A program made the position numbers and the translations under genes. A stretch of DNA of 64,000 bases from Erysipelotrichaceae bacterium 66202529 (GTDB taxonomy: Bacteria > Bacillota_I > Bacilli_A > Erysipelotrichales > Erysipelotrichaceae), in NCBI GenBank assembly GCA_017161075.1, contig CP046174.1, positions 2,542,001 through 2,606,000 of the forward strand. Direction: 5' to 3'. The notes beneath the pieces were generated by a model. The model did no database searches and was not told where the DNA came from. It was given only the letters and a program-made list of their open reading frames with translations. Positions 1 to 45,298 of this stretch are shown one piece after another (position 1 is the stretch's first letter; every line of letters starts with the position of its first letter).

Positions 1-1662
1 TGCTGTGATTTTATATAGCTCATCCATGGTTGTCTGTCCATTGAGTACAAGTTCCACAGCCTCATCCTTCAGTGTGTGGAGGTTCTGTGATTTCTTTACA
101 TAGGCATAAATTTCATCAATATCACGGTGAGCGGAAATCATTTTACGCATTTCCTTATCAATCAGAATAATTTCATGCACAGCCGTTCTGCCTTTATACC
201 CTGTCTGATTACAATGGTGGCAGCCTGCACCGCGATATACATATTCCACATCGCTTCCCAGTACCTGGCGTTCCATTTCTGTTGTTTTCATTTTTTCCCT
301 GCAATGCGGGCAGATCGTACGCACTAGACGCTGCGATACACTTCCCACCAGAGAGTTGGCGATCATGTATGGCTCGATTCCCATATCCTCCAGACGTACA
401 ATAGAGCTGATGGCATCATTGGTATGCAGAGAGCTTAATACCAGATGCCCGGTAATGGCAGCACGTACAGAGATGGATGCTGTTTCGGCATCACGCGTCT
501 CTCCTACTAAAATTATGTCCGGATCCTGTCGCAGTAAGGCACGCAGACCACGTTCAAAGGTCAAACCAGCCATCGTATTGATCTGCATCTGATTCACGCG
601 TTCAATATTTTTCTCAACCGGATCTTCAATCGTGGAGATGTTCACCTGACGTTTTGCCAGGGTCTCCAGAATCATATACAGGGTCGTAGTCTTTCCGCTT
701 CCGGTAGGCCCTGTAATGTAGATAATGCCATGGGGCATCTCCATCATACGGCACATTTTCGCATAATTATCCGCATTCATACCATACTGACGTTCGTTTA
801 ATATCGGCGTATTGCTGTTCAGAAAACGCAGAACAGCTTTCTCACCATATACAGTCGGAATTACAGAAACACGAAGATTCATACGGATTCCTTCGATGGT
901 AGTCAGAAAGTGGCCATCCTGTGGAACACGTTTTTCTGCAATGTCCATATTACTGACAATTTTGATTCGCACGATCAGTGACTGATGCAGATTCTTGGCA
1001 AGCTGCACATAGTCAACGATCATCCCATCGATACGCATACGCACCATCGTTTTATCTTCAAATGGTTCTATATGAATGTCACTGGCGTTTGCATTGTATC
1101 CTCTTGTTAAAAGGCTGTTAAACAGCTTGACTACCGGCGTATCATCCTCTTCTGAGTTGTATAGCTCCGTTTCGTTAAATTCAAAGGAAACAACATTCTC
1201 GTTTGCAACGCTGGCAGCTTCCCGGGCCTTGATTTCCGCATAGTAATAGTCAATGGCGCGATCTATTGCGGCTTTCTCACACAGGCAGACGGAGATATTC
1301 ATGCCGGTTACCAGACGAACATCCTCAATACCGTAGAAATTCAGCGGATCACTTGTGACAATCGTCAGCCGCCCATTGTTTTCACTGATTGCAATCAGGT
1401 TATATTTCTGTGCCAGTGTTTTTGGTATTTTCGCGACAGCATCTACTTCTATTTTTTCTTCGTTCAGATCGACCATTGGCTCATTCAGCTTATCACTGAG
1501 TGCTTTCAGCATCTGGTTTTCGCTGATGAATCCCAAATCAATCAAATGCTGACCAAGGCGTTTGGATCGATCCTTTTTCTGTTCTGCCAGTGCCCGCTGC
1601 AGCTGTTCTTCATTGATATAGCCGTATTCCTTCAGCACTTCACCTATTGGTATGTTTTTCAT
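1..1662 (-). CDS. Type IV pilus assembly ATPase PilB/GspE (3' end cut by window)
   Basis: Hexameric cytoplasmic ATPase that powers pilin polymerisation. The 554 visible residues start MKNIPIGEVLKEYGY (GspE_N-type domain, first ~150 residues). The ATPase core has a Walker A GPTGSGKTT, an aspartate box (STIEDPVE), a Walker B region (DPDIILVGETRD) and a His box (LVLSSLHTND). A tetracysteine zinc site follows (ICPHC and GCHHC). The reading ends ...TTMDELYKITA at base 1, close to where the family normally ends, so few residues are missing. The start at 1662 has AAAAGGATGTG upstream and lies 20 bp after the preceding minor pilin gene, so this is the visible distal end of the pilus operon. The zinc motif and the PilM/N/O neighbours favour PilB over ComGA. 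No PilT retraction ATPase is visible. Confidence 0.93.
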   Translation of the reverse strand, partial: MKNIPIGEVLKEYGYINEEQLQRALAEQKKDRSKRLGQHLIDLGFISENQMLKALSDKLNEPMVDLNEEKIEVDAVAKIPKTLAQKYNLIAISENNGRLTIVTSDPLNFYGIEDVRLVTGMNISVCLCEKAAIDRAIDYYYAEIKAREAASVANENVVSFEFNETELYNSEEDDTPVVKLFNSLLTRGYNANASDIHIEPFEDKTMVRMRIDGMIVDYVQLAKNLHQSLIVRIKIVSNMDIAEKRVPQDGHFLTTIEGIRMNLRVSVIPTVYGEKAVLRFLNSNTPILNERQYGMNADNYAKMCRMMEMPHGIIYITGPTGSGKTTTLYMILETLAKRQVNISTIEDPVEKNIERVNQMQINTMAGLTFERGLRALLRQDPDIILVGETRDAETASISVRAAITGHLVLSSLHTNDAISSIVRLEDMGIEPYMIANSLVGSVSQRLVRTICPHCREKMKTTEMERQVLGSDVEYVYRGAGCHHCNQTGYKGRTAVHEIILIDKEMRKMISAHRDIDEIYAYVKKSQNLHTLKDEAVELVLNGQTTMDELYKITA

Positions 1663-1682
1663 ATCTTCACATCCTTTTGATT

Positions 1683-3173
1683 TTAACTGTAACTTTGACA
1701 TGTTACAGAGACTTTTGTATTTTGTAATAATTCTTCTATACTTTCATACCCTTTAGACCATCCTGAGTTTGCAGTTGAAGGAACCCATATACCATCTATT
1801 CGCTGAAGTGCCTGATAAAATAATTTTTTACCATTTACTGTATATGATATTATATCACCTTTAAAATACGTTCCATTTGTATTCCAAGCTTCATCAATTT
1901 TCTTCCAGTAATTTCTAGCTGTACCTCCTGGCGCCCATCCGTTATCAGCCTGTGCATCAGGTTGCAAAGGAGTTGTATAAACATAGCGATACCACTGACC
2001 TGGAGTTTTTGTATCCTCAACATAATCTCCGGGCTCTATAACCTGTCCTGCATTCCATTGCTTTTCTGGTCCTGAACATCTTGCTTTTTCCCCACCAACA
2101 GTCCAATTGCCTTCCTGGTCATTATCTACTTCACAAAAATCTTTACTCTTATGTTCCTCTATAATCACTTTCAATTCCGTACTACTTAGTTTATGCCATT
2201 TATTCTTATCATTATCAGGAGAATTATTACTATTATTGATATCCTCTTTTGCTTGATAATAGGTGTTTGTAATTCGGTAAATAACAACATCCTCATTTTT
2301 ATAGCTGGCCCCTTCCACCCAATAAGGAGGATTTACCGGTTTCCATGCATTTCCCTCATTATTCAAAGGGTCTTTCCCATTCTTAGCATCTTTAACAGCA
2401 CGATAGGTCACCCCCAGATAATCAACAAAATCTCCCTGTTTATAATCATAATTTGCAAGCCATGTTCCCTTATTATTACCTGTCTCATCTGGTTTCGTAA
2501 CAGCTTGATCTCTGCACCTTAACTCATCATATACGGTGCCCTCAAACGTAGGATCATCATAATCGATATCCGGATATTCATAATCAGGATCATCCACGAT
2601 TTGCAATGAGCCATTTACCTTATAATAAATTTTATAGCCTGCTTCTGCCTTATCATGGTCTGATATATCAACTTGTTTGCCCTTTATACCAGTATTAACA
2701 ATAGCTTCCCCTTTTTTATCCTTTGCTTTAATATTCACCAGCTCCAGAGTAGAAGCTGTTTTATAAACCTGCTTTTCATTATCAGCAAAAGCAAAGGTTA
2801 AGTCTAAACGATAATTATCAATATAGCATTTCGCAGATATTTTCAAATTTCTTCCTCTATAAAAATCTTCATTATATACAGAAGCATCATCCTTTACAAG
2901 CTGATTTTTATCATTCACCGAAATCCAATGCCAGTCATCAGATGTATCAGGTTTCTGAGTTGCTATTTGTACTTCACTTGCATAAATCAATTGTCCTCTC
3001 ACATACGATGAAATAGCATCTACGGCCTGCTTTTCATAATTACTTTGTGCTGTCTGATTAAAATACCCCATATTATTCAAAAGCAGACCACCTGCAATTA
3101 CCATTAAAATAGAAGACAGCAATAGAACTACAATCACTTCAATCAATGTCATACCTTTTTTATTTAATTGCAT
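1683..3173 (-). CDS. Minor pilin-like protein with tandem carbohydrate-binding-like modules
   Basis: 496 residues. The start MQLNKKGMTLIE at 3173 is preferred because AAAAGGAGG lies 8 bases upstream; a longer reading to 3215 overlaps the previous gene and lacks a ribosome site. Residues 6-35 are a class III-type prepilin signal and hydrophobic helix (KGMTLIEVIVVLL). Residues ~40-225 are a pilin-like globular part. Residues ~238-472 hold four units of CBM5/12 character, each with aromatic residues around a GD.V.Y...Y.A core and a closing W: about 238-279, 285-327, 373-423 and 430-472. The first is clearest (GDFVDYLGVTYRAV ... W). Ordinary minor pilins are 150-250 residues, so the tail is an addition. 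The gene sits between another minor pilin and pilB. A tip adhesin or glycan-binding role is inferred. Confidence 0.85.
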   Translation of the reverse strand: MQLNKKGMTLIEVIVVLLLSSILMVIAGGLLLNNMGYFNQTAQSNYEKQAVDAISSYVRGQLIYASEVQIATQKPDTSDDWHWISVNDKNQLVKDDASVYNEDFYRGRNLKISAKCYIDNYRLDLTFAFADNEKQVYKTASTLELVNIKAKDKKGEAIVNTGIKGKQVDISDHDKAEAGYKIYYKVNGSLQIVDDPDYEYPDIDYDDPTFEGTVYDELRCRDQAVTKPDETGNNKGTWLANYDYKQGDFVDYLGVTYRAVKDAKNGKDPLNNEGNAWKPVNPPYWVEGASYKNEDVVIYRITNTYYQAKEDINNSNNSPDNDKNKWHKLSSTELKVIIEEHKSKDFCEVDNDQEGNWTVGGEKARCSGPEKQWNAGQVIEPGDYVEDTKTPGQWYRYVYTTPLQPDAQADNGWAPGGTARNYWKKIDEAWNTNGTYFKGDIISYTVNGKKLFYQALQRIDGIWVPSTANSGWSKGYESIEELLQNTKVSVTCQSYS

Positions 3174-3196
3174 TCTCGCCGCCTCCTTTTTTATCA

Positions 3197-4129
3197 TCAA
3201 TTCACATTCTTCCACATTGAATCTGTATTGTTTTTGTTATATTCTGCATTTATATCCAGTACTTTCCACTTGTTTTTAGGATTCTTTATAATGTCTTTCA
3301 TATCTGCCCAAGATTTGATATAGCCGTTATTCTTCACATCATACAGCACTTTTCCATCCAGTGAAGAAAAAACAACCTTGATTCTATAAGAGTCTTGATC
3401 ACAATAATACCATAGATCATTATCATAATCATAAATAATATAGAGATAATCATCAAAATCGATATTTGTATCAACTAACGCATTCCTTTGATTTAACATG
3501 ATTATGAGACCACCATGATCATGCTGATTATCTCCCTTTTCAATTTCCCACGGATAGTATGGAAAAACATAGACATCCTGTGCTCCTAGCTTCGAGCGAT
3601 AGCTATTAGGAAGAAGTGTCTTAGGGAACGGTATCCATTTTGAGGACATTGCAATCTGAACCGATTTCAATGAAGCATTATAGGAATTCCCTTCTTCCAT
3701 ATTTACGTAATCATCCTTTGCTTTTTTTATTAAGTTATAAAATTTATCAACCTCTGTTTTGAAGGCTTTATATATAGATGTATCTTTTACTTTTTCCTGA
3801 TTCCCCGGTTCCTCCATTACTCTTAAATGTACTTTATTATCCCCTTTTATATTTAGCACAGATATATCCCTTGAAACAGGTATGCTTACCTTATCCGAAG
3901 AAACAGTATACATTACCTTATCTGTATTTATTTGGATATTCTCTATAATATCTTCCTTCTCTGTTTTTTCAGCATAAGACAGTAGTCTATCACTGTTATT
4001 TTTTACCGTACTAGAATTACCCATAATTCTTAATACTGCAGAAAAGCCTCCAAAAAGCGTAAGACTGGCAATGGAAAGAATTGTTAATGCCGCAATCATT
4101 TCAATTAAAGTCATACCTTTTTTATTCAT
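3197..4129 (-). CDS. Minor pilin (prepilin-type N-terminal methylation domain)
   Basis: 310 residues. The signal is MNKKGMTLIEMIAALTIL, with the peptidase cut expected after the glycine and Glu5 conserved, followed by a ~20-residue hydrophobic helix. The rest is charged, Tyr/Asp-rich and not recognised. Start 4129 is chosen because AGAGG lies 8 bases upstream; the upstream GTG at 4138 and ATG at 4135 are too close to that ribosome site. It ends just inside the extended reading of the next gene and is clearly co-transcribed with it. Probably a priming or tip subunit of the pilus. Confidence 0.85.
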   Translation of the reverse strand: MNKKGMTLIEMIAALTILSIASLTLFGGFSAVLRIMGNSSTVKNNSDRLLSYAEKTEKEDIIENIQINTDKVMYTVSSDKVSIPVSRDISVLNIKGDNKVHLRVMEEPGNQEKVKDTSIYKAFKTEVDKFYNLIKKAKDDYVNMEEGNSYNASLKSVQIAMSSKWIPFPKTLLPNSYRSKLGAQDVYVFPYYPWEIEKGDNQHDHGGLIIMLNQRNALVDTNIDFDDYLYIIYDYDNDLWYYCDQDSYRIKVVFSSLDGKVLYDVKNNGYIKSWADMKDIIKNPKNKWKVLDINAEYNKNNTDSMWKNVN

Positions 4130-4146
4130 TTCCATCACCTCTTTCT

Positions 4147-5190
4147 TTAATCAACACATCTTTCTGGTATAAAATATTTCTTTTTGAATGCTTCCCAATT
4201 GAGTAATTCATTCTCTGGCACTTTTCCATCAACTAACGTACCTATAATTTTCAATGTTTCAATTTTACTTCCATTCATTTCAGTCACATTATACCAATGA
4301 CCATCTTCAACATTAAATATCATATAGGCTTCCCAATCACCATTATTCATACTATTTCTATCATTTGCGTATACAAAAGATAATTTTTTTCCATCAGAAC
4401 AATACGTTTTCATATAGAAGGTTTTGCCTTTAAAATTTTCTGGTAAATGAGATGCAGCGCTATTAACAAACATAGGTATTTGACTTTGATAAATCCCATA
4501 GTAAAGATAGGAACGCATCCAATCATTATTATAGTAACCAATATTTGCATATTTTTCCCAACTATCTCCAAACTGATTTATCAATCTGTTTGTTATGTCA
4601 GGATCCTTTTTCAAATACTCTTTCAGTATGGCATTTCCAGAACAAGCTGCTTCATAAAGAGGTGTTAAATGAGACATCATAATCTTCGCATTCTTGATAT
4701 TGATATTCTCCTGAACGTCTGCTCCCTGCCCCTTATAGTATTTTAAAAGCTGCCATTTTTTCAAATCTCCGGTTCTTCCCAGCTGCATATCCGCATTTAC
4801 TGTATCTGTCTGACCTGCATAATCAACAGTGATGCTTACTGTTAACTTTCCTCGTATATCTTTATCCTTATCAACCTCAACACGGGCTATCTTAGCCTCT
4901 GTTACCGTTCCCAGATTCGCATTTTCAGGTAAATCTATATTCAGAGGCGTTGACTGGTTAACTTCCTCTGGTATCATAGAAATATAATCCTCATTATCCA
5001 GTTCTATTTTCTCTACAATATTCTGTATAACACCCTTTGCTGTTAAATAAGCCTGTCGTCTATTATTGTTTTGTACACTTCGATTATAGTAAGAATATGA
5101 AATACCCAATGCAGCTGCCACCGTAATCATCAGCACCATGATTACCGTAATTGCCCAAAGCAGTGCAGAGCCTTTTTGATTTCTTTTCAT
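4147..5190 (-). CDS. PilX/PulK-like minor pilus component
   Basis: 347 residues. It begins MKRNQKGSALLWAITVIMVLM, a variant prepilin-like signal (KGSALLW, lacking Glu5) of the kind seen in PilX-type proteins, followed by one membrane helix. The remainder is an extracytoplasmic domain I do not recognise. GAGGTGAGAAT precedes the ATG. It follows the PilO gene by 16 bp. A minor subunit or assembly factor role is inferred from the signal and the operon context. Confidence 0.75.
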   Translation of the reverse strand: MKRNQKGSALLWAITVIMVLMITVAAALGISYSYYNRSVQNNNRRQAYLTAKGVIQNIVEKIELDNEDYISMIPEEVNQSTPLNIDLPENANLGTVTEAKIARVEVDKDKDIRGKLTVSITVDYAGQTDTVNADMQLGRTGDLKKWQLLKYYKGQGADVQENINIKNAKIMMSHLTPLYEAACSGNAILKEYLKKDPDITNRLINQFGDSWEKYANIGYYNNDWMRSYLYYGIYQSQIPMFVNSAASHLPENFKGKTFYMKTYCSDGKKLSFVYANDRNSMNNGDWEAYMIFNVEDGHWYNVTEMNGSKIETLKIIGTLVDGKVPENELLNWEAFKKKYFIPERCVD

Positions 5191-5206
5191 ATTCTCACCT
5201 CTCTTT

Positions 5207-5791
5207 TTATATCATGAACAGTTTAAATGTAATGGTTGTTGTCTGATCCTCATTCTCCTGGGAATATGTCACTCCGGAAACCTTTAATGACTTTGTTGTT
5301 CGCACATCATCGATCAGAGTCTGAACATCCGCAATAGCACCTGACACACTTAAATTCACATTATAAACCTTTATCTGTGTATTACTCTTTGCATTTGTAG
5401 ACTTTTTCTGCTGCAACTCGTATTCTGTATAACTCATAATAGGCTCTTCATCCGCATCTGCGATACTAAGACTGACAGGAGTAAGCCCATGCTCTATAGT
5501 CATAGAGGTAATTAGATTATCGACATCTTCCTTCTTCATATCCTCATAAAACTTATTCTTAATATTTTTCAATTCCTCAGAAGTTTCCTTCAGCTTTTTA
5601 TCCAAATCTCCATAATCGATGATGGAAGCCTTCGCTGACTGCAATTCAAGCTGTGCTGTATCATAATCTGCTTTCAGACTGTTATGCTTTTCCAGTGCCG
5701 GCATAAGCATCCAAAACACTCCTCCGGCAAAAATGATAATACATAACAATACATACAGCATAAATTTTTCCCGTTTTGTTAATGTCTGCAT
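5207..5791 (-). CDS. PilO-like inner-membrane alignment protein
   Basis: 194 residues. A short cytoplasmic N-terminus is followed by one membrane helix (about residues 11-31, YVLLCIIIFAGGVFWML), a coiled coil (~35-85) and a small ferredoxin-like C-terminal domain. This is the PilO plan. PilO pairs with PilN to connect the cytoplasmic PilM ring to the pilus machinery. AGGTGAATTT precedes the start, and it lies 8 bp after the PilN-like gene. Confidence 0.8.
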   Translation of the reverse strand: MQTLTKREKFMLYVLLCIIIFAGGVFWMLMPALEKHNSLKADYDTAQLELQSAKASIIDYGDLDKKLKETSEELKNIKNKFYEDMKKEDVDNLITSMTIEHGLTPVSLSIADADEEPIMSYTEYELQQKKSTNAKSNTQIKVYNVNLSVSGAIADVQTLIDDVRTTKSLKVSGVTYSQENEDQTTTITFKLFMI

Positions 5792-5799
5792 AAATTCAC

Positions 5800-6537
5800 C
5801 TACTTCAGTTTACAGAGAACAGTAGCTGAATATACTGTTGTCGTCTGTTTATTCGTTTGCGTATTCGTCTCGTTATTCTTATTCAATAAATCCAGCAGCT
5901 GCTGTGCGGCAGATTCTGCATCATCCTTCTTTTCTGTATCAGTATTCGTTTCCGTTTTCTGTGTATCCGTATTCTGTTCGGTTGCCCCTGCAGTCTGTGT
6001 CTCTTTTTCAGACTGCGCATATCCGGAATAGTCAACCGCTTCAAATATCTTACTTTTCTTTAATCTTCTAACAAACTGCTCGGTATCCTCAGCTGTCAGA
6101 GATTCCACCTGAAGCGATACGATCTGTGTATCCCTTTGATAGGATAAAGATACGACAGATGTACTCAAATCAGAAGCAATCAGAATCTGGTCAAAGGTAT
6201 TTTGACTAAGCTGCGGGTAAGACTGAATATCCTTGTGCAGTGTCTTATACTTTTCTACATCATTCATCGCCTTCTGCAGGGACTGGTATTTTTCCAAATC
6301 CGGATCCTCCGCAATCTGCTTCTGCACCTGCTTCAGTTCCTCCTTTGCAGCAGCAATATCGGAATTAAGTGTATGATTCTGATACGTCAGACTACCAAAC
6401 CATGTCAGTAAAATAACTGCAGCACAAATTGGAAATGCCAGGTATTTTAACGTTTTGGCATATGGTGAAGCTTCTTTTTTCTGTTTATAAACTTTTAATA
6501 AATCAATATCTTTGTTTTTCAACCCGTTTTGAAACAT
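5800..6537 (-). CDS. PilN-like membrane protein
   Basis: 245 residues from ATG 6537 (MFQNGLKNKDIDLL). GAGG lies 8 bases upstream, which favours this over the GTG at 6546. It has a cytoplasmic N-terminal stretch with the PilN-type D-I-D-L-L segment that contacts PilM, one membrane helix (~35-55), a coiled coil, a small periplasmic-type domain and a Thr/Glu/Asn-rich low-complexity stretch near residues 180-230. That linker is unusual for PilN and may be an exposed spacer. It sits between the PilM and PilO genes in the standard M-N-O order. Confidence 0.78.
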   Translation of the reverse strand: MFQNGLKNKDIDLLKVYKQKKEASPYAKTLKYLAFPICAAVILLTWFGSLTYQNHTLNSDIAAAKEELKQVQKQIAEDPDLEKYQSLQKAMNDVEKYKTLHKDIQSYPQLSQNTFDQILIASDLSTSVVSLSYQRDTQIVSLQVESLTAEDTEQFVRRLKKSKIFEAVDYSGYAQSEKETQTAGATEQNTDTQKTETNTDTEKKDDAESAAQQLLDLLNKNNETNTQTNKQTTTVYSATVLCKLK

Positions 6538-6547
6538 CCCATACACC

Positions 6548-7459
6548 TCACTTTCTAATCAAACAGCCTACCGGAAATACATAATCATGTAAATGGAAAT
6601 CATTATAGGACTGTGCTGTAACATAGACAATTTTTGAATCCGGGAATTGCTCTGCCTGCATGGACAGATTTGTCCGTATACTTTCAAACACCATGCGTTC
6701 CTCCGCATCATCCAGTCCACAGAAGTAAGCTATCTCAATCGGATACGGACTTTGCTTGGATTTACTAAACTGAATCAGCTGTGATATATTACTGTTCATT
6801 TCAGATATGAAAGCCTGTGTCCCACGCTCTGAAAAAAGTCGCGTCCTATTCGAGAAGGTGTAATGATTTTTTTCAAACAGATATGAAGATACATTATTGC
6901 CATCCAGCACAGAAACAATATAGGTCTTGTTATCCAGATCAGCCAGCTCCTGTGTCAGCTTATGCAGTGCATTTATGGAGATATCCATGCTTTTCAATTT
7001 GATTTCTGCACTTTCAAACAGCTCTATATAGCTTGTTAAGAGCTTTCTCTCAGCGGCACAGCACAGAATCTCTCCGCCCTTTTTATTCTCATCCGCAAAC
7101 GCCGATTGAAGTACACTGTAATCATAAACAAGATCTTCATAGCTGCCGTCAATATCGGATAACTCATCCCTGGCAACCTTCATCAATTCTTTTTTTGATA
7201 GCTGAGGAACCTGGATATTTTTCACCAAAATCTGCCCGCTGTCAATAACAAGCCTTGCTTCCTTTACACCATTTTCATGAAGCTCCTTCAATATTTCCAG
7301 TATGGAAGAATCATCCGTTATGACACCATTGATCATCGCGCCTTCTTCCAGAGGATATTCATGAAATGCTTCTATTTTTATCATATCCTTTTTATCACAT
7401 GAACCGTATATCATTTGTACTGCATGTGATGAAATATAGATTACATATTCTTTTGCCAT
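6548..7459 (-). CDS. PilM-like actin-fold ATPase
   Basis: 303 residues from ATG 7459 (MAKEYVIYISSHAVQ), preceded by AAGGGAGAATCTT; the longer reading to 7546 has no ribosome site and overlaps the previous gene. The protein looks like the actin/FtsA-like PilM family: an N-terminal phosphate-loop strand pair (YVIYISSHAVQMIYG) and a middle Asp-rich strand (YIVSVLDGNNVSSYLF). PilM forms a cytoplasmic ring that binds PilN and PilB. Similarity is moderate, so the assignment leans on its position directly ahead of the PilN- and PilO-like genes. Confidence 0.75.
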   Translation of the reverse strand: MAKEYVIYISSHAVQMIYGSCDKKDMIKIEAFHEYPLEEGAMINGVITDDSSILEILKELHENGVKEARLVIDSGQILVKNIQVPQLSKKELMKVARDELSDIDGSYEDLVYDYSVLQSAFADENKKGGEILCCAAERKLLTSYIELFESAEIKLKSMDISINALHKLTQELADLDNKTYIVSVLDGNNVSSYLFEKNHYTFSNRTRLFSERGTQAFISEMNSNISQLIQFSKSKQSPYPIEIAYFCGLDDAEERMVFESIRTNLSMQAEQFPDSKIVYVTAQSYNDFHLHDYVFPVGCLIRK

Positions 7460-7473
7460 AAGATTCTCCCTTA

Positions 7474-8676
7474 CTAATAGCCTGTCATACCTGAAGGATT
7501 CTGGTACATCTGATAAATTGGCAGCAGTACAGCCAGCATAACGCATAATACAATCAATGCCAGAATGATAATCATAACCGGTTCCAGCAATGTCACCATG
7601 CGCTGAGAAGCAGCTTCTGATTCATAGTCGAAATCATCCGCAAGTGATGTCAGCATATTTTCCAGCCGTCCGCTTTCCTCACCGATATAGATAGAGCTTG
7701 CCAGCTTTGGGTCAAAGCCTTCTATTTTCTGCACGCTTTGAGATAACGATGTTCCATTTCTCACCATTCCAACGACACTGTCAAACTGTGCTTCTATATA
7801 TTTATTTCCAATCGTATTGCGAATGATTAAGATGCCATTGATAATAGAAATTCCACTCGTATACAGAGAGCACATATTTCGTGCAAACCGTGCTGTATAA
7901 ATAATTCGCAGAAGTTTTCCAATCTTCGGTATTTTCAGCTTCATTTTGTCAACGCGATACCGTATTTTTTCAACCCGCAGCAATGTTGTAATCAGCCCGA
8001 ATATGCAAAGGATACCAATGAGCAGCCAATACCAGTATTCTATCATGATCTGTGATAAGCCATTTACGATTTTTGTAATCAAGGGAAGCTCCATTCCCTT
8101 AAAGGATTCGGAAAAGCTTGGAACGATCCATGTAAACACAACAACAATAACGAATACGGTTACACACAATAAAATAATTGGATAAATCATCGCATTTCGA
8201 ATCTTCCTTTTGATATGATCGTCCTTCTCATACTGCAGCGCCATGGTCATAGCTACCTTTTCCATCTGCCCGCTGCTTTCTCCTGTCCGATACATATTGA
8301 TCATAAGCTCCGGAAACGCTTTTCCTTCCGATTCCATTGCCATGGACAATGTTTGTCCCTGCTGCAGCTTACGATACATATCTGTATAAATTGCTTTTAT
8401 TTTTGGTTTATCCTCGCGTTGTACGAGAATTGACATTGCACGAATCAGACTGACACCGGAGCCAATCATAGCGCCCAGCTGACGCGAAAAATCCGATAAT
8501 TCTTTTAATGTCAGCTTATACGTATTCTGCTGGGTGTTTGTCACATCCTTGCAATCAATTAAATACTGTTCCTTTGAACGCAGAAAAGCAGAAAGCTCAT
8601 TTCTGCTGTTTGCCTCCATTTTTCCGGTTATCCGTTTGGAATTTATATCCTTCGCTATATATTTATAAACCGCCAT
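7474..8676 (-). CDS. Type IV pilus/type II secretion platform protein PilC/GspF
   Basis: 400 residues, polytopic. Two T2SSF repeats are visible, each with the family's GE.SG signature (FRTGESSGQMEKVA around residue 130 and YIGEESGRLENML around residue 335). Three membrane helices are visible (~167-190, ~215-232, ~370-392). It is the inner-membrane platform that couples PilB to pilin insertion. GGAGGAACATAT precedes the start. Confidence 0.95.
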   Translation of the reverse strand: MAVYKYIAKDINSKRITGKMEANSRNELSAFLRSKEQYLIDCKDVTNTQQNTYKLTLKELSDFSRQLGAMIGSGVSLIRAMSILVQREDKPKIKAIYTDMYRKLQQGQTLSMAMESEGKAFPELMINMYRTGESSGQMEKVAMTMALQYEKDDHIKRKIRNAMIYPIILLCVTVFVIVVVFTWIVPSFSESFKGMELPLITKIVNGLSQIMIEYWYWLLIGILCIFGLITTLLRVEKIRYRVDKMKLKIPKIGKLLRIIYTARFARNMCSLYTSGISIINGILIIRNTIGNKYIEAQFDSVVGMVRNGTSLSQSVQKIEGFDPKLASSIYIGEESGRLENMLTSLADDFDYESEAASQRMVTLLEPVMIIILALIVLCVMLAVLLPIYQMYQNPSGMTGY

Positions 8677-8697
8677 ATATGTTCCTCCAAACCTGCA

Positions 8698-9465
8698 TTA
8701 TAAACCAAACAATGATAAATATACCTGTATCAGTTTCTCACCATAAAGTAATGATATCATAATTCCTGTGCATAAATAAGGGCCAAACGCGATATGTGCA
8801 CCTTTTTCCGTTTTTTTGGACAAAAGGAGACAAATTGCATAGCAGCCTCCTATTATTACAGATATAAAGAACGCAAGCAGTGTCAGCTTCCAGCCCAATA
8901 AAAAGCCCGCAACAGCTATCAGTTTTATATCTCCTCCGCCAAAGCAATCCGGAATCAGCACTGTAAGCAAATACATGGGAAGACTGACAATAAAGAAGCC
9001 AATACATCTGGTAACAATATCCATTTCCGTATGTAAAGCTGTGAACATACCAACGGGAACAAGTAGTGCTATAAGCAAACCATTAGGTATCGTCATGGTA
9101 TCAAAATCTATCATCGTAATAGTCAATAAAATCATGAATATCGCAAATACGACTATGGTATCCCAGGAAAATCCGTATAGATAGAAACAAAGCATCCCAA
9201 TACAGCCACCAAGAAATTCCAAGACGGTATCACGCACTGGTATCTTGCTTCCACAGTATCGACACTTTCCTTTTAGGAACAGATAACTAAAAACCGGAAA
9301 TAAGTCATACCATTTCAACGGATGCTCACACGCTGGGCAGAAAGATCGTCCCTTTACAAAGGATAATCTCTGTGGTAGTCTCCAAATCACGACATTCAGA
9401 AAGCTCGCAATACAGATTCCAATAAGAAAAGAGTAGATATATAGTATCCATAAGACTGTATCCAA
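8698..9465 (-). CDS. Prepilin peptidase / N-methyltransferase (PilD/GspO family)
   Basis: 255 residues with a TTG start at 9465 behind AAAGGAG. It cleaves prepilin signals and methylates the new N-terminus. Seen here: the N-terminal zinc tetracysteine domain (CPAC...CRYC, residues ~43-75), the two catalytic aspartates in membrane loops (DFDTMTIPN and the GGGD of FGGGDIKL), and about seven membrane helices. It is the first gene after the pilin terminator and has everything needed to process the four pilin-like proteins of this operon. Confidence 0.95.
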   Translation of the reverse strand: MDTVLWILYIYSFLIGICIASFLNVVIWRLPQRLSFVKGRSFCPACEHPLKWYDLFPVFSYLFLKGKCRYCGSKIPVRDTVLEFLGGCIGMLCFYLYGFSWDTIVVFAIFMILLTITMIDFDTMTIPNGLLIALLVPVGMFTALHTEMDIVTRCIGFFIVSLPMYLLTVLIPDCFGGGDIKLIAVAGFLLGWKLTLLAFFISVIIGGCYAICLLLSKKTEKGAHIAFGPYLCTGIMISLLYGEKLIQVYLSLFGL

Positions 9466-9492
9466 GAATCATCCACTCCTTTCTTAATGAAT

Positions 9493-9514
9493 AAAGCCTC
9501 CTGTAAGAGGCTTT
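9493..9514 (-). terminator. Attenuating hairpin after the major pilin
   Basis: Perfect stem AAAGCCTC / GAGGCTTT with a 6-base loop, lying between the pilin stop and the prepilin peptidase. The U-tract is weak, so partial read-through is likely. This would give high pilin mRNA and lower levels of the assembly genes. Confidence 0.7.
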
Positions 9515-9535
9515 ATATTAAATACGAATTAGTTA

Positions 9536-9961
9536 TTATTTCTTTTCAATTTTTGTTTGTGTTGCAGTATACTCCGTATTAGAACCGACTACCTTAATAG
9601 TGCATGAATCTATTTTTTTACTACTAACCTCACATGAAATAGAAGTCATCGCTCCGTCAGCATTAGGTTTCAGACCAAGTTCCTCATTAACTTTAGTAGC
9701 AAAACCTTCATCTTTCGTAATTCCATTTAAAGCAACGTCATCAGCACCTGGATGCTCCCCTATATAGCTCGTAGTATAAGACTGTGCCGCAATATATCCT
9801 GCTCTTACCTGAGACTGTACTTTTGTCTCCGCAGCTTCATTGATATACTTCATCACAGCTGGAACAGCCAATGCCATCAAAATACCGATAATAACCAAAA
9901 CAACGATGATTTCTACCAGCGTAAACCCTTTCTTGTTTTTCTTCAATTTCTTAACATTCAT
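9536..9961 (-). CDS. pilA: Major type IV pilin (PilA)
   Basis: 141 residues from ATG 9961 behind AAGGAGAAGAG. The prepilin signal is KKNKKGFTLVEIIVVLVIIGILMALAVPAVMKY: cleavage after Gly, Phe1, Glu5, then the long alpha-1 helix. The globular part is small, with two cysteines (SCEV and SCTI, ~18 residues apart) that could form a disulfide loop. It is the promoter-proximal gene of the operon and is followed directly by an attenuating terminator, as expected for the most abundant subunit. Confidence 0.93.
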   Translation of the reverse strand: MNVKKLKKNKKGFTLVEIIVVLVIIGILMALAVPAVMKYINEAAETKVQSQVRAGYIAAQSYTTSYIGEHPGADDVALNGITKDEGFATKVNEELGLKPNADGAMTSISCEVSSKKIDSCTIKVVGSNTEYTATQTKIEKK

Positions 9962-10203
9962 TTTTCTCTTCTCCTTTTTTTGCAGGCAATGTTTCACAAG
10001 TTATAATTTATGAAACAGGTGATTTTCAATGAAATCAGCCGTTTTTTTATGCGTTTTCAACATAAAAACATACATCATCACCTGTGAATGTAACTATTTC
10101 CCTATGTCCATAATAGTATAGGTTAATAGATATTCGAGGTATGAAAATGCAGCCTATATCTTCACAAAAGCCCCTTTAACATTACCTAATTATCAACATT
10201 TAT
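9962..10203 (-). promoter_or_regulatory. Long 5' leader of the pilus operon
   Basis: About 240 nt separate the candidate promoter from the pilin start. Two inverted repeats are visible: TGATTT/AAATCA near 10020-10038 and GTTTCA/TGAAAC near 9992-10018. I could not match a c-di-GMP-I or -II consensus by eye. The hairpin near 10020 is followed on the plus strand by GTTTTTTT and could also act as a plus-strand terminator. Confidence 0.4.
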
Positions 10204-10212
10204 ATTATAGCA
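10204..10212 (-). promoter_or_regulatory. Extended -10 promoter for the pilus operon
   Basis: TGCTATAAT on the minus strand is an extended -10 with a perfect TATAAT. The -35 region (TTATTT, 17 bases upstream) is weak, as is common with extended -10 promoters. It lies in the gene-free stretch 9962-10362. Confidence 0.6.
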
Positions 10213-10362
10213 TAAAAATGGTTAGAAAATAAGATTAGTGCACTTTTTCAGCAGAAAATCACATGCAATCTATATAACACACCCTTTTTGTGATACAAAT
10301 GTGATATTTGTCCTATGAGGCGCACCATCTTTCCTTTCTTTTATCTCAAAACCGTCATAAAA

Positions 10363-11097
10363 TCAGCGTCGTTTTAGCGTATACATACAAATACCAGCCG
10401 CTACTGCGACATTCAGAGATTCAAAGGTATCCATCTCAATATATACATGGGTATCCGCCAGATGTAAAACAGCATCGCTGACTCCGCTTCCCTCATTTCC
10501 AAACACAAGTGCAAATCGCTCAGATGCAGCGATATCATGAAGCGGTGTTGCGTTTCGCAAGGATGTTGCCAGAATACGGATGCCCTTACGCTTCAGCTCC
10601 TGCAGCATATCCACGACCTCTCCCCGTATTACCGGCACATGAAACAATGCCCCCTGTGTGGAGCGGATCACCTTTTCATTGTAAATATCACAGCTATGTG
10701 AGGATAACAACACTGCATCATATCCAAACGAAAGCGCAGAACGTATAATCGTCCCGACATTACCGGGATCCTGCACATTATCCAGCACAATAACACGCTC
10801 TCCATAATCAGCAGTATTGTACTGAGGCATGCGACAAACTGCCATAATCCATGTACCGGAGATACTGCTTTGCAGCTTCTTCAGAATTTCTGGGGTGACC
10901 TCATATACAGGATACTGCAGAAAGTCATGCCCTCGCCCGGCTTCCACAAGGATTGCCTCTACCAGTCCGGCCCTTGCCGCCTCCTCAATCAGATGCTCAC
11001 CTTCGACCAGAAATTTCTGATCCTTTTCCCGATGCTTCTTTTCCTTATATTTCGCCCACTGCTTTACCTTTGCATTTGTCAATGATGTAATTTCCAT
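10363..11097 (-). CDS. TrmH/SpoU-family RNA 2'-O-methyltransferase (RlmB-like)
   Basis: 244 residues. An N-terminal L30e-like substrate domain (~1-90, VEGEHLIEEA) precedes a SPOUT knot domain with its three motifs: VIVLDNVQDPGNVGTIIRSA (~105), FALVFGNEGSGVSD (~195) and ESLNVAVAAGICMY near the C-terminus. Such enzymes methylate 23S rRNA or tRNA riboses with SAM; the exact nucleotide cannot be told from sequence alone. AAGGAGAGCAGT precedes the start. It is about 200 bp downstream of ileS and separated from it by a terminator. Confidence 0.9.
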   Translation of the reverse strand: MEITSLTNAKVKQWAKYKEKKHREKDQKFLVEGEHLIEEAARAGLVEAILVEAGRGHDFLQYPVYEVTPEILKKLQSSISGTWIMAVCRMPQYNTADYGERVIVLDNVQDPGNVGTIIRSALSFGYDAVLLSSHSCDIYNEKVIRSTQGALFHVPVIRGEVVDMLQELKRKGIRILATSLRNATPLHDIAASERFALVFGNEGSGVSDAVLHLADTHVYIEMDTFESLNVAVAAGICMYTLKRR

Positions 11098-11237
11098 ACT
11101 GCTCTCCTTATTCTATAACCAAATGATGTACACAAACTGTCCTACTGTCATTTCTTCTTATACAGCCTCTGTTATTGTACTGTATTTTTGACCGCATTTC
11201 CATAGAAAACAGCAGTCACTTCATAAAATACAAAAAA

Positions 11238-11264
11238 GACAGACGAATTTGCATTTCGCCTGTC
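11238..11264 (-). terminator. Rho-independent terminator of ileS
   Basis: On the minus strand GACAGGCGAAAT / ATTCGTCTGTC form a long stem with a short loop, followed by TTTTTTG. It begins about 35 bases after the ileS stop. Confidence 0.9.
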
Positions 11265-11297
11265 AAATATTTATATCAAATATGGTAGGTAAACCAC

Positions 11298-14024
11298 TTA
11301 TTTCAACACGTCTGCACAACGCGCACACAGACCGTCTTCCGCATCAGAATCTGTAATATTCCAACATCTTGGGCAAAGCACACCTTCGCACTTCTCTACC
11401 GCAACCTGACAAGCCTCATACTGCTTCAGCTCATCCACAGAGAAGCTGACCTTTGATACAATCAGCCACTGGTTGAATTGAGAACCGCACAGCTTTTCAA
11501 TCAATGCACGATCTTCATCACTCACATTTACGATAACATGTGCCTCCAGGGACTTTCCAATCACCTTATCCGCACGTGCTTCCTCCAATGCCTTGAAAAT
11601 ATCCTGACGCAGTGCCATCATGCGCTCCATATCTGCTTTGATTTCCTCCGCATGCTCAATATCCAAAGCCTTTGCAAAGCGGCCCAGGTGAATGCTGTCT
11701 GCCTCAGTATGGAAGAAGTCATTGACCTCCTCACAGGTATGAACAAGAATCGGTGCCCACAGACGTACCAGCACATTGATGGCGTGCCACAGCACGGTCT
11801 GTACCTGACGTCTTCTTAAAGAATCCTTCTTTTCGATGTACAGGATATCCTTTGTATAATCCATATAATATGCAGACAGCTCATTTGTCATCAGATTGCT
11901 CAGCATATTGGTGATATCCGCAAAACGGTACTCCTTATATGCCTTTACTGCCTTTTCATTCACTTCATTTAACAGTACTAAAATATACTGATCCAGCTCT
12001 GGCAGCTCATAGATATCGACCAGATCGTCCTTTGTGAAATCCTCATCCGGATTTACATTGGCAAGCATGAAACGGAAGGTGTTGCGCACCTTGCGATACT
12101 GCTCACTGATCTGCTTCAGGATTTCATCTGACATACTGCAATCTGCCTGATAATCCACACTTGTTGCCCATAAACGCAGAATATCCGCACCGTACTTCTT
12201 TGTGATTTCTCCCGGGGCAACCGCATTCCACTGTGATTTGCTCATCTTCACGCCCTTGCCATCCATAACAAAGCCATGACTCAGCACCTGCTTGTATGGA
12301 GAATGTCCGTGTACTGCTGTACCGATAATCAAGGAGGAGTTGAACCATCCGCGATACTGATCGCTTCCCTCAAAATACAGATCCGCAGGATAGCCTAAAC
12401 CGCGTTCCATCATAGCACCGGTATGGGAGCTTCCGGAATCAAACCATACATCCATCGTATCTGTTTCCTTACGGAATTCCCCGTTTGGAGAGCCTGTATG
12501 GGTATAGCCTTCTGGCAGCAGCTCCTTTGCTTCCTTCTCAAACCAAATATTGCTTCCATGCTCGCGGAACAGCTCAGCCACATGAGCAAATACAGCTTTA
12601 TCCATGATCGGTGTATCATCCTCCGCATAGAAAATCGGAATCGGTACACCCCACGCACGCTGACGGGAAATACACCAGTCCCCGCGATCCGCAATCATAT
12701 TGTGCATACGCTGCTGTCCCCACTTTGGAATCCAGTCCACGTTTGCGATTTCCGTAAGCAGCTGTTCACGGATTTTATCAATGGATGCAAACCACTGTGT
12801 CGTTGCACGGAAAATGATCGGTTTCTTGGTTCTCCAGTCATGCGGGTAGGAATGGGTGATAAACTCCAGCTTTAACAATGCGCCCAGCTCATCCAGTCTC
12901 TGTGTAACCGTCTTGTTGGCGTCATCGACATACTGTCCCTTCAGCCAGTCTCCGGCATCCTCCATCATACAGCCGTGCTCATCCACATTGCAATATGCAG
13001 GCAGACCGTACTTCTGTCCAATGAAGAAGTCATCCGCACCAAAGCCAGGTGCAGTATGTACACAGCCGGTACCGGCATCTGCCGTTACATGATCCCCCAG
13101 CATAACCAGGGATTCCCGATCATACAGCGGATGCTGACACGTAATCATTTCCAGCTCGCTTCCCTTGAAGGTTGCCAGCTTTTCTTTACGTTCTAATCCG
13201 AACTTTTCCCATAACGCATTGACCAGCTCTTCCAGAACGATCAGCTTACCCTTTTCGCTTTCCACAAGCGCATAGGTGTAATCCTTATTCAGACAGATAC
13301 CCAGGTTGGCAGGAATCGTCCACGGAGTCGTCGTCCAAATCACAAATGAGGTATCACTGTCAAGAACACCCTTGCCATCCTTGACCGGGAATTTTACGAA
13401 AATTGTCGGACTCTTGATATCCTTATACTCAATCTCAGCCTCTGCAAGTGCTGTCTCACTGGAAGGACTCCAGTATACCGGCTTCAGTCCCTTGTAAATC
13501 AGACCATCCAAAGCCATGGAAGCAAAGATTTCAATCTGATGGGCTTCAAAATCCTTTGTCAGTGTAATATATGGATGATCGTAATCACCAACAACACCCA
13601 GGGATAAGAATCCCTTCTTTTGACGCTCTACCTGTTCCAGTGCATAATCATAGCACAGCTTGCGGAAATCAGATAATTCCATTTCCTTGCGGTTATGCCC
13701 CAGCTTCTGAATTGCTGTTTCAATCGGTAAGCCGTGTGTATCCCAACCAGGGATATACGGTACCTTATAGCCAGCCATATAACGGTTTCGCACAATGACA
13801 TCCTTCAGGATTTTATTCAGGGCATGACCTAAATGGATATCCCCATTTGCATAGGGAGGCCCATCATGTAAAACAAATGCTTCACAGCCCTCACGGTTTT
13901 CCAGCATTTTCTCATAGATATCGCTTTCCTTCCAGCGTTTCTGAAAGCTCGGCTCCTTCGTCGGTAATTTTCCACGCATCTCAAATTTTGTTTTCGGCAT
14001 TAACAGTGTATCCTTGTATTCCAT
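11298..14024 (-). CDS. ileS: Isoleucyl-tRNA synthetase
   Basis: 908 residues. Charges tRNA-Ile. It has the class I signature HLGH (PPYANGDIHLGHAL, ~residue 60), the editing domain (WTTTPWTIPANLGI), KMSKS (GVKMSKSQWN) and a C-terminal zinc finger (CPRCWN ... CARC), i.e. the common bacterial type. Start 14024 is preferred over ATG 14030 because GGAGG is 8 rather than 2 bases away. Expression is set by the T-box leader directly upstream. Confidence 0.97.
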   Translation of the reverse strand: MEYKDTLLMPKTKFEMRGKLPTKEPSFQKRWKESDIYEKMLENREGCEAFVLHDGPPYANGDIHLGHALNKILKDVIVRNRYMAGYKVPYIPGWDTHGLPIETAIQKLGHNRKEMELSDFRKLCYDYALEQVERQKKGFLSLGVVGDYDHPYITLTKDFEAHQIEIFASMALDGLIYKGLKPVYWSPSSETALAEAEIEYKDIKSPTIFVKFPVKDGKGVLDSDTSFVIWTTTPWTIPANLGICLNKDYTYALVESEKGKLIVLEELVNALWEKFGLERKEKLATFKGSELEMITCQHPLYDRESLVMLGDHVTADAGTGCVHTAPGFGADDFFIGQKYGLPAYCNVDEHGCMMEDAGDWLKGQYVDDANKTVTQRLDELGALLKLEFITHSYPHDWRTKKPIIFRATTQWFASIDKIREQLLTEIANVDWIPKWGQQRMHNMIADRGDWCISRQRAWGVPIPIFYAEDDTPIMDKAVFAHVAELFREHGSNIWFEKEAKELLPEGYTHTGSPNGEFRKETDTMDVWFDSGSSHTGAMMERGLGYPADLYFEGSDQYRGWFNSSLIIGTAVHGHSPYKQVLSHGFVMDGKGVKMSKSQWNAVAPGEITKKYGADILRLWATSVDYQADCSMSDEILKQISEQYRKVRNTFRFMLANVNPDEDFTKDDLVDIYELPELDQYILVLLNEVNEKAVKAYKEYRFADITNMLSNLMTNELSAYYMDYTKDILYIEKKDSLRRRQVQTVLWHAINVLVRLWAPILVHTCEEVNDFFHTEADSIHLGRFAKALDIEHAEEIKADMERMMALRQDIFKALEEARADKVIGKSLEAHVIVNVSDEDRALIEKLCGSQFNQWLIVSKVSFSVDELKQYEACQVAVEKCEGVLCPRCWNITDSDAEDGLCARCADVLK

Positions 14025-14043
14025 ATCCATATCCTCCTTTTAT

Positions 14044-14270
14044 GAAAAAAAGACGCCTTCTATCTAAGGACGTCTTATAACGCGGTACCACCTTAGTTCA
14101 CACGGATTCCATGTGCCCTCTGCTTATAACGACAAGTGTATCGTATTTCCCTACTGTATTCAGGAAATCTGCTCCAAAGTGATATTTTCCATACCTCTCG
14201 TACCGGCTTCCACCAGCCGCCGGCTCTCTGTAACTCCCTGTACGAAAACGTGTCTTTATCATCGCATTTC
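14044..14270 (-). promoter_or_regulatory. T-box leader (Ile-specific) controlling ileS
   Basis: The conserved T-box AAGGTGGTACCGCG is at 14081-14094. It is followed by the terminator AAGACGtCCTT/AAGGCGTCTT with a T-run (14044-14076), which the T-box can convert to an antiterminator. Upstream is Stem I with the apical-loop-like GGCTGGTGGAAGCC region. A specifier ATC followed by A lies at 14181-14183 inside a GGAAA/TTTCC stem, matching Ile. Uncharged tRNA-Ile should stabilise antitermination. The leader begins right at the divIVA stop. Confidence 0.95.
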
Positions 14271-14733
14271 AAATTTCTTTTTTTAATAAATCAAGATCCG
14301 GTATTTCCGGCGTCTCAAAATCGTCCAAAGCCTGTGTGATTTTTTGCAGCTCCTTACGCATGCTTCCCTTCAGATCGTTCGCCTCGTCCCCAAGACGTGC
14401 CACCTCCATAAGAATTCCGCGTGCCATCATCAGCGCTTCCTTCACAATGGCATCAGCGTTGCGGTGTGCCGTATCGACAATCATGTTTGCTTCCTTCATC
14501 GCCATGCGTGTCATTTCATCAGCGGCTTTTTCCTTAACCTCGAGATTTTCACTGACATCACGATACCGTGACTCCAGCTCCTGATATTCTCTTGTCAGCT
14601 CCTCTTTCAGTAAGTTAGCTTTTTCCAGTTTTTTCTGGAGGCTTTCCATCTGCAGCTTCTGTGTCTGAATGTAATCCTCCACCTGATAGCGATTATATCC
14701 ATTTTTCATTGTATCAAATGCGTATCTGTCCAT
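14269..14733 (-). CDS. divIVA: DivIVA-family cell division/polar protein
   Basis: 154 residues from ATG 14733 (MDRYAFDTMKNGYNRYQVEDYI) behind AGGAGAGGGATT. The N-terminal lipid-binding domain has the F..M..GY...QVDxF-type pattern. Two coiled-coil stretches follow (~25-70 and ~80-135). It marks curved membranes at division sites and poles. It overlaps nothing but follows ylmH by 14 bases; sepF-ylmH-divIVA is the standard end of the Firmicute division cluster. Confidence 0.92.
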   Translation of the reverse strand: MDRYAFDTMKNGYNRYQVEDYIQTQKLQMESLQKKLEKANLLKEELTREYQELESRYRDVSENLEVKEKAADEMTRMAMKEANMIVDTAHRNADAIVKEALMMARGILMEVARLGDEANDLKGSMRKELQKITQALDDFETPEIPDLDLLKKEI

Positions 14734-14747
14734 AATCCCTCTCCTAT

Positions 14748-15500
14748 TCACTGATACATGCCAACCTCAATGACAAGATTTCCCTTTTTTGTTTCCTTCA
14801 CAACCTCTTTCAGCTGGAATCTTCCATGTCCGCGAATGGAAATAACACAAGTATTATCGCACAAATGAGATGTTTGTTCAAGTACTACATGATTAACTTT
14901 TACCTGTCCTGCACGGATGCATGCCGCTGCCTTTGCACGGCTCATGTTGGAAAGAGCGGACACCAGTGTATCCAAACGCAGGGAGGAGACAATCAGCGTT
15001 TTATATGCGATATCCGGCTCATAGCTGATCACCTCATCGCTTTCCTCCAGTTGAATCTTACATCTGCGTATCTTTGTCAGATTCGCACACAAATAATTAC
15101 CGATATCTGGATCTACAAACATATGCACCGTATTCTGATCCACGATGAGATCTCCGGTTTTCTCACGCTCGATGCCAAGATGCATCAGGGCGCCCAGCAC
15201 ATCGCGGTGCGTGATCTGTCCAAAGCTGGAGGAAATATTTGCTTTGACATGCAGGATAGGAATTTCCACATCCTCCTCCCAGGGAAGAAACGCAAGCCGG
15301 CAGCGTTCAGCCTGCGCATAACCGCCCTGTTTGCGATACAGAATCCGGTGTCCGCAAAAGCGTTCTGCAATCTGTATCTGATCAGGCGAAAAAAAGGGTG
15401 TAACAACAATCCGATTCCAGCGCTCCATGCGATCAATCTGATCCTGAAGCCGCCGAACGAATTCCTCGTTACCCCGGTAATGCTCAATTGCGACAGTCAA
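14748..15500 (-). CDS. ylmH: YlmH, S4-domain RNA-binding protein of the division cluster
   Basis: 250 residues with a TTG start at 15500 (GAGGAAG 11 bases upstream), 3 bases after sepF. The C-terminal S4 domain is clear (RLDTLVSALSNMSRAKAAACIRAGQVKVNHVV, ~residues 174-206). The N-terminal ~165 residues match the YlmH fold (FFSPDQIQIAERF). YlmH is described as a ribosome-associated quality-control factor in Bacillus. Start choice is less certain than for the neighbours. Confidence 0.9.
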   Translation of the reverse strand: MTVAIEHYRGNEEFVRRLQDQIDRMERWNRIVVTPFFSPDQIQIAERFCGHRILYRKQGGYAQAERCRLAFLPWEEDVEIPILHVKANISSSFGQITHRDVLGALMHLGIEREKTGDLIVDQNTVHMFVDPDIGNYLCANLTKIRRCKIQLEESDEVISYEPDIAYKTLIVSSLRLDTLVSALSNMSRAKAAACIRAGQVKVNHVVLEQTSHLCDNTCVISIRGHGRFQLKEVVKETKKGNLVIEVGMYQ

Positions 15501-15503
15501 CGT

Positions 15504-15905: not shown

Positions 15906-15933
15906 GTACGCGTCCCTCCTATACATTACGTAT

Positions 15934-15942
15934 ATTCTAGCA
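15934..15942 (-). promoter_or_regulatory. Extended -10 promoter for sepF-ylmH-divIVA
   Basis: TGCTAGAAT on the minus strand lies about 28 bases upstream of the sepF start, immediately after the upstream terminator. No strong -35 is visible. Confidence 0.5.
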
Positions 15943-15943
15943 C

Positions 15944-15971
15944 AAAAACCCCTTTATAAAAAGGGATTTTT
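15944..15971 (-). terminator. Terminator of the sigG-ylmC unit
   Basis: Stem CCCTTTTT/AAAGGGG with flanking A5/T5 runs on both sides, so it can work in either direction. It isolates the sporulation genes upstream from the division genes. Confidence 0.8.
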
Positions 15972-16032
15972 CATGAAATTTATACAAGTCACACAATCTG
16001 TTTCAAAAGGCTGCATATTTGTAACAATTTTA

Positions 16033-39577: not shown

Positions 39578-39603
39578 ACAGGTAAAGAAAGGAGCTGATG
39601 AGC

Positions 39604-43719: not shown

Positions 43720-43720
43720 A

Positions 43721-45289: not shown

Positions 45290-45298
45290 ACCGTTCAC

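Follow-up and report, generated by a model that had tools for sequence, protein, structure and literature searches.

The gene at positions 1683 to 3173 of the window, by which we mean the whole stretch of 64,000 nucleotides that was analysed, encodes a modular pilin, a member of a class already described. Its tail carries four modules resembling CBM5/12 carbohydrate-binding modules and, as judged from the protein sequences, the distal pair (modules 3 and 4) is exchanged among close relatives in the [Clostridium] innocuum group. Taking the observed domains, operon and mosaicism together, we consider it probable that the protein serves a chromosomally encoded type IV pilus as a modular minor pilin, and that its putatively glycan-reading distal pair is swapped by homologous recombination. 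Because the relatives keep the base and differ in their outer halves, the pilus probably alters its adhesion target by swapping the outer half. The coordinates are collected in Table 1.

Table 1. Features of the tailed prepilin gene and of the surrounding pilus operon (window positions).
Feature	Position	Strand	Remarks
pilB-type extension ATPase	1..1662	-	T2SSE 414.2, MshEN 64.8 bits; runs past the window edge
Modular type IV prepilin, 496 aa	1683..3173	-	ATG at 3173; ORF and translation, N_methyl and CBM_5_12 matches
Segment exchanged between relatives	1686..2129	-	Extends to the C-terminus, starting at residue ~349-364 or, in one pair, at residue 309 (base 2249) within module 2
CBM5/12-like module 4, residues 430-475, distal pair	1749..1886	-	W463 at the Trp687 position; Pfam 16.1 bits alone; fold match
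CBM5/12-like module 3, residues 371-425, distal pair	1899..2063	-	W413 at the Trp687 position; no Pfam match alone; fold match (model of residues 286-496)
Hinge, residues 329-365 (ELKVIIEEHKSKDFC...TVGGEKAR)	2079..2189	-	Holds most exchange breakpoints
CBM5/12-like module 2, residues 284-328, proximal pair	2190..2324	-	No Pfam match alone; fold match together with module 1
CBM5/12-like module 1, residues 237-281, proximal pair	2331..2465	-	Pfam 25.7 bits alone; fold match to the Vibrio COD tandem CBM pair
Pilin module, residues 8-191	2601..3152	-	Long helix 10-63 and beta-sheet head
Class III leader MQLNKKG	3153..3173	-	Predicted cleavage site ahead of M8; mature protein with Glu5
Minor pilin 2	3197..4138	-	N_methyl 26.5 bits
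Minor pilin-like gene, PilJ C-terminal domain	4147..5190	-	PilJ_C 39.6 bits (cut-off 26.7); without Glu5
pilO-like	5207..5791	-	Assigned by position and size; without informative family match
pilN-like	5800..6546	-	GspL_C 24.6 (cut-off 29.6), PilN 16.5 bits (cut-off 22.8); both below cut-off
pilM	6548..7465	-	PilM_2 51 bits (cut-off 27)
pilC platform protein	7474..8676	-	T2SSF 167.8 bits
pilD prepilin peptidase	8698..9465	-	A24_N_bact 105.8, Peptidase_A24 55.3 bits
pilA, presumed major pilin	9536..9997	-	IV_pilin_GFxxxE 33.7 bits (cut-off 16.3)

An earlier reading made from the sequence alone (the sequence-only reading) had proposed a genuine prepilin signal, KGMTLIEVIVV, and this was borne out. 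The leader, with MQLNKKG followed by MTLIEVIVV, scores 26.2 bits with Pfam N_methyl (cut-off 21.2) and 25.8 bits with NCBIfam IV_pilin_GFxxxE (cut-off 16.3), and the product shows the class III signal peptide and the subsequent hydrophobic helix with Glu5 that mark a type IV pilin. The predicted structure also has the pilin head fold, and the fold of this head matches that of PilB, an adhesive modular pilin from Streptococcus sanguinis. The model of the whole protein reached a pTM of 0.36, at which the relative placement of the domains is not readable.

Profile and structure searches of the tail revealed a CBM5/12 resemblance, and did not place it in a pilin beta-sheet fold devoid of such likeness. 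The predicted folds of both module pairs match the tandem chitin-binding pair of the Vibrio chitin-oligosaccharide deacetylase (COD; 3wx7, 4nz1), and a profile built from eight distal pairs finds CBM12 of chitinase A1 (1ed7, E 7.9e-5) and Vibrio COD (E 2e-4). We name the modules CBM5/12-like because the protein's own sequence falls short of the Pfam PF02839 cut-off of 26.2, with 19.5 bits for the whole protein and 22.8 bits for the tail. Five of the ten same-layout homologues scanned pass this cut-off (P0012, P0013, P0015, P0019 and P0022), as do P0010 and L010, while P0004 and P0009 stay below it. When the proximal and distal pairs were compared as profiles, they aligned colinearly over 129 columns (E 1.6e-20, valid for one comparison); plain BLASTP of the two pairs gave E 0.002. 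Judged by these comparisons, the tail is a tandem pair present twice, by duplication, with four modules in all. The four CBM5/12-like modules of the sequence-only reading are hence present, although its picture of four equal modules was too simple. Between the pairs, residues 332-361 form a helical hinge that is covered by few rows in either fold search. Module 2 additionally gives 27.8 bits with phrog_6278, an uncharacterised phage family in PHROGs.

By our own count, we take Trp687 of chitinase A1 to be the W of GWEP in 1ed7. This tryptophan is chitin-binding according to the title of reference 45 in PMC8449059. Its column aligns with the W-x-P of the modules, both with MAFFT and, for P0013, in a direct alignment; the equivalents were taken from MAFFT alignment A1, with the module sequences read partly by eye. 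Among 18 rows of P0001-P0020, no Trp, Tyr or Phe stands at this position in module 1 (0/18) or in module 2 (0/18). Module 3 and/or module 4 carry one in all 15 complete distal pairs of the same set, from which P0006, P0012 and P0020 were dropped as truncated. The residue itself varies: tryptophan is found in both modules (P0001, P0002, P0003, P0005), in module 3 alone (P0004, P0009) or in module 4 alone (P0013, P0014, P0019), W in module 3 is combined with Y in module 4 in P0017 and P0018, and a single Y in module 4 (P0007, P0010, P0011) or a single F in module 3 (P0015) also occurs. As only 3 of the 12 more distant rows (P0021-P0033) have an aromatic at the aligned columns, namely P0022 in module 3 and P0030 and P0031 in module 1, chitin binding cannot be family-wide.

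The glycan-binding pilus adhesin that had been suggested is retained as a pilin with a CBM5/12-like and, from sequence, fold and operon context, probably glycan-binding tail; among close relatives the binding aromatic is kept in the distal pair alone, and this pair is also the part that varies. The probable ligand of that pair is a polymeric glycan, GlcNAc-containing or other, at the surface of host, fungal or bacterial cells. Close relatives share a constant proximal pair in which the classic aromatic is missing, so that this pair is probably a spacer or a weak binder. The tail could instead be structural or bind a non-glycan such as protein, DNA or teichoic acid, with the CBM5/12 fold acting as a sticky scaffold as in fibres of phages and injection systems. 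The Foldseek matches also include tail fibres of an Agrobacterium phage (9rkv_M, E 2.7e-5; 9rkv_N, E 0.11) and the baseplate of a contractile injection system (7b5h, E 0.16 and 0.17), and the missing aromatics of modules 1-2 would fit such a role. However, the nearest folds and profiles are chitin-binding modules, and the distal aromatics are kept in every complete close relative, so that we regard this alternative as unlikely.

The protein search returned 33 proteins, the 1683-3173 product among them; the source names among these are [Clostridium] innocuum for P0012 and Candidatus Stoquefichus massiliensis for P0033, and it is from this result that we presume the window to belong to the innocuum group. 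Thirty of the 33 were aligned (P0008, P0016 and P0023 were left out). Segment identities over 14 rows revealed four scaffold groups (P0001/P0004, P0002/P0012, P0003/P0007/P0010 and P0009/P0011), and two tail types occur in each of them. As we read the identities, tail types A to D are spread across these groups, and a fifth type sits on the more distant scaffold of P0015. In the change-point scan, P0001 and P0004 share 98.3% identity up to residue 363 and 35.7% beyond it, P0003 and P0010 98.1% up to residue 364 and 32.5% beyond (P0003/P0007 likewise change at residue 364), and P0009 and P0011 99.4% up to residue 349 and 30.4% beyond. For P0002/P0012 the values are 98.4% and 37.2%, with the change at residue 309 and thus inside module 2, not in the hinge. 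The pattern is reversed in P0010/P0011 and P0007/P0011, with 80.9% identity before residue 357 and 98.6% after it.

The scores of the scaffold-sharing pairs range from 113 to 147, and in none of the exchange pairs did any of 500 shuffles reach the observed score. Pairs sharing tail type A scored weakly, with 5.9 (reached in 16/500 shuffles), 3.0 (144/500) and 5.4 (15/500). Among pairs with tail type D, P0012/P0013 scored 12.1 at residue 438, where P0012 is truncated (0/500 shuffles), and P0013/P0014 scored 7.6 at residue 109 (3/500). Some unevenness of identity hence exists without exchange, yet it remains far below the scores of the scaffold-sharing pairs. Trees of residues 1-308 and 366-496 were built from 17 of the 30 rows, leaving out P0005, P0006, P0020 and ten distant rows. 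All eight AU tests (scaffold clades against the tail data in four, tail clades against the scaffold data in the other four) rejected a common history, with p from 7e-65 to 3e-5; because we defined the groups with the alignment already in view and the trees contain long branches, we put the weight on the effect size.

Most of the mosaic proteins recur on several contigs, which makes it unlikely that assembly chimeras account for all of them: P0001 is found on 144 contigs (the longest of 4,461,680 bases), P0012 on 82, P0004 on 10, P0007 and P0010 on 6 each, P0009 on 3, P0011 on 2 (272,169), and P0002 and P0003 on one each. Clustering of the protein database at 90% makes divergent combinations more likely to be seen, and how frequent each combination is cannot be read from it. 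The GC content is 33-40% in the tail windows, inside the 30-40% range of the other pilin genes and lower than in pilB (42-51%). Truncated tails occur in at least two clusters: P0012, which carries the NCBI name of C. innocuum, stops early in module 4 relative to P0013, and P0006 has a short out-of-frame end.

Our proposal for the working of the protein is as follows. PilD would remove the leader, and the pilin head would join the filament, probably at or near its tip, so that the tail of ~285 residues would project its four modules from the pilus. The distal pair would be swapped when incoming DNA recombines by the ordinary homologous route, for which the protein sequences suggest two homology arms: the conserved hinge and, at the far end, the start of the adjoining pilB. 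The adhesive end would be replaced with the assembly part left intact, and the specificity of the pilus would change. Strains within a single gut species group could in this way attach to differing surfaces with one shared pilus machine. It also offers a natural set of interchangeable, putatively glycan-binding ends on near-identical scaffolds, with which the ligand specificity of a type IV pilus can be tested by comparing variants. More tentatively, and with somewhat less than even confidence, we propose that the distal pair may be a dedicated exchange cassette, through which gut Erysipelotrichales retarget their chromosomal pilus by hinge-to-pilB recombination under selection for ligand diversity. 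If so, a Gram-positive gut bacterium would possess a population-level counterpart to the PilV shufflon of plasmids.

The variation could also be programmed within one cell, with silent distal cassettes or a shufflon copied or inverted into the expressed gene. A constant part of ~345-365 residues followed by a variable C-terminus is the layout of the PilV shufflon (345 constant and 69-113 variable residues; PMC9045228), and P0035, a stand-alone tail ORF of 163 aa on 4 contigs (the longest of 650,236 bases), begins in the hinge. Candidate origins of this ORF are a silent copy, an allele with a shifted frame and a fragment from a contig edge. We nevertheless judge programmed variation to be improbable. 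Repeats at window positions 1-16000 and inverted repeats at 1600-3200 contained nothing cassette-like: the inverted repeats in or beside the gene are short and imperfect (up to 22 nt at 1600-3200, and one of 26 nt), no direct repeat resembles the tail, and the pilin stop abuts pilB. Among 262 candidates, the tail-profile search gave four stand-alone tails (P0034-P0037); the contig measures 1,190 bases for P0034, 712 for P0037 and 976 for P0036, which is a frame-shifted remnant. Two tail-query searches for silent tails in public proteins gave only these four. Additionally, the Longicatena genome has the tail once, and the breakpoints vary (residue 309 and residues 349-364). Among the operon genes scanned, no Rci-type tyrosine recombinase was seen. 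Tails on mobile elements were not confirmed in viral contigs, where the peptide patterns used were few or narrow, and none was found in phages or plasmids. In one protein, P0023, the pilin head and part of module 1 continue in frame into the C-terminal region of an integrase of the phage type (PF00589, 52 bits), reflecting either the insertion of an element or an assembly chimera. With one cluster member, a longest contig of 6,591 bases and a possible chimeric origin, we dropped recombinase-driven exchange as an explanation drawn from this fusion.

Exchange by homologous recombination would act on a gene that is embedded in a pilus operon, which reads on the minus strand pilA, pilD, pilC, pilM, the pilN-like and pilO-like genes, the PilJ_C gene, minor pilin 2, the tailed prepilin and pilB. 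The ATG of pilB lies ~20 bases beyond the stop of the tailed prepilin, and the ATPase is 86.8% identical to the ORF at the equivalent place in Longicatena L027. The products of pilD, pilC, pilM, pilB (as T2SSE) and the PilJ_C gene pass their Pfam cut-offs; PilA scores 46.7 bits with GspG, under the equivalog cut-off. A secretion-like system, in which the protein would be a pseudopilin tethering GlcNAc-polymer-degrading enzymes to their substrate, is very improbable: NCBI labels the relative P0012 'type II secretion system protein', PilC matches best as GspF and the ATPase scores 539 bits as GspE and 511 bits as PilB (all under equivalog cut-offs), but the operon has PilM, PilD and PilJ_C domains, a PilT-family ATPase adjoins pilB in relatives (pilT_fam 431.5 bits, cut-off 319.1, for L002), and polysaccharide hydrolases are missing among the operon genes scanned.

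The N-terminus of the ATPase carries a c-di-GMP-binding MshEN motif, which NF053729 also finds (64.8 bits, cut-off 38), and extension of the pilus may for this reason be controlled by c-di-GMP. Two ORFs of the window, 42379-43764 and 43721-45298, presumably resemble GGDEF proteins. Elsewhere in the window, 19387-20403 encodes a PD-(D/E)XK nuclease family transposase (PF12784, 58.2 bits) and 39598-40248 a hexapeptide-repeat transferase (PF00132, 39.6 bits), which we take to resemble the xenobiotic acetyltransferase group. In the PilJ_C gene the leader ends with G and is followed by SALLW, with Glu5 absent. Glu5 is missing from tip-capping minor pilins (PMC10191384).

Modular pilins comprise more than 1,200 proteins in 264 architectures, carbohydrate-binding domains included (PMC8179133). 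For the 15 commonest of these architectures we read 12 accessions, none of which is CBM5/12. The open-licence literature consulted yielded no report of a CBM-tailed pilin of this kind, which may be contained in the supplementary list of 264 architectures of PMC8179133, and a search combining innocuum with pilin found nothing in open-licence papers. We met no description of such a pilin in PMC9942572, PMC4834066, PMC8179133, PMC9934059, PMC10191384, PMC9045228, PMC12786226 and PMC8449059. The sequence-only reading knew of no type IV pilus with such a tail in this lineage; we found no description either, although pilins with grafted adhesive domains are a described class (PMC8179133). The pilin class is thus known, the CBM5/12-like tail was not found described, and the exchanged distal pair is the chief point of interest. 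The protein would also add a CBM5/12-like pair, otherwise met here in chitin-active enzymes and phage fibres, to the domains presented by pili. Four clades of C. innocuum are described, and isolates of it are known from creeping fat in Crohn's disease (PMC9942572); in the main text of that paper 'pilin' does not occur, and the single mention of 'type IV pil' concerns CpaF.

Among known systems, the modular pilins of S. sanguinis have a vWA (PilB) or a ConA lectin tail (PilC, which binds sialylated glycans), whereas the present pilin has two CBM5/12-like tandem pairs, of which the distal part is exchanged between relatives (PMC8179133, PMC9934059). The tandem pair of Vibrio COD (3wx7, 4nz1) serves an enzyme; here, in contrast, two pairs sit on a pilin without a catalytic domain, and the proximal one lacks the aromatic. 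The PilV shufflon of the IncI plasmids R64 and TP114, in which a dedicated recombinase varies the adhesin end, has a similar outcome with a constant N-terminal minor pilin and a variable C-terminal adhesin (PMC9045228). However, PilV is plasmid-borne and the present gene lies in a chromosomal pilus operon, with neither invertible cassettes right after the constant part nor a neighbouring recombinase found in the window; its constant/variable layout is seen between relatives and is known between strains only. The type IV pilus of C. difficile shares the PilJ C-terminal domain, which here belongs to the gene adjoining the prepilin; we met no mention there of a CBM tail such as that of our pilin (PMC4834066).

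Across the order, 21 of 315 genomes in the order of Faecalibacillus match P0001, and 9 of 272 genomes in the family of Longicatena gave a match, with a best identity of 39%. The scans of genome contigs gave nine distant loci and no close-relative locus. Pilin ORFs were taken from 19 loci, four of which gave no ORF by the motif used and one of which repeats another (L013, L012); the 14 long ones were scanned with Pfam. PF02839 was found at E<1 in 8 of these 14 (one, L010, above cut-off), a vWA domain in two (L020, L022) and neither in four (L018, L044, L045, L050). A tailed pilin stands directly before pilB in five of nine regions (Longicatena L027; L060, L061, L063 and L064), and also in Faecalibacillus L001 and Longibaculum L002, so that the slot recurs in the order while the tail diverges. 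The vWA tails, at L020:322-1773 and L022:160-1773 in the Longicatena family (PF00092, 37.4 and 29.9 bits), have the layout of S. sanguinis PilB; we rejected these two as occupants of the same slot because their gene neighbours are others (L058, L059). In Longibaculum muris, a tail-less paralogue of the pilin head (L002:9971-10552) lies directly upstream of the tailed pilin (10597-12087).
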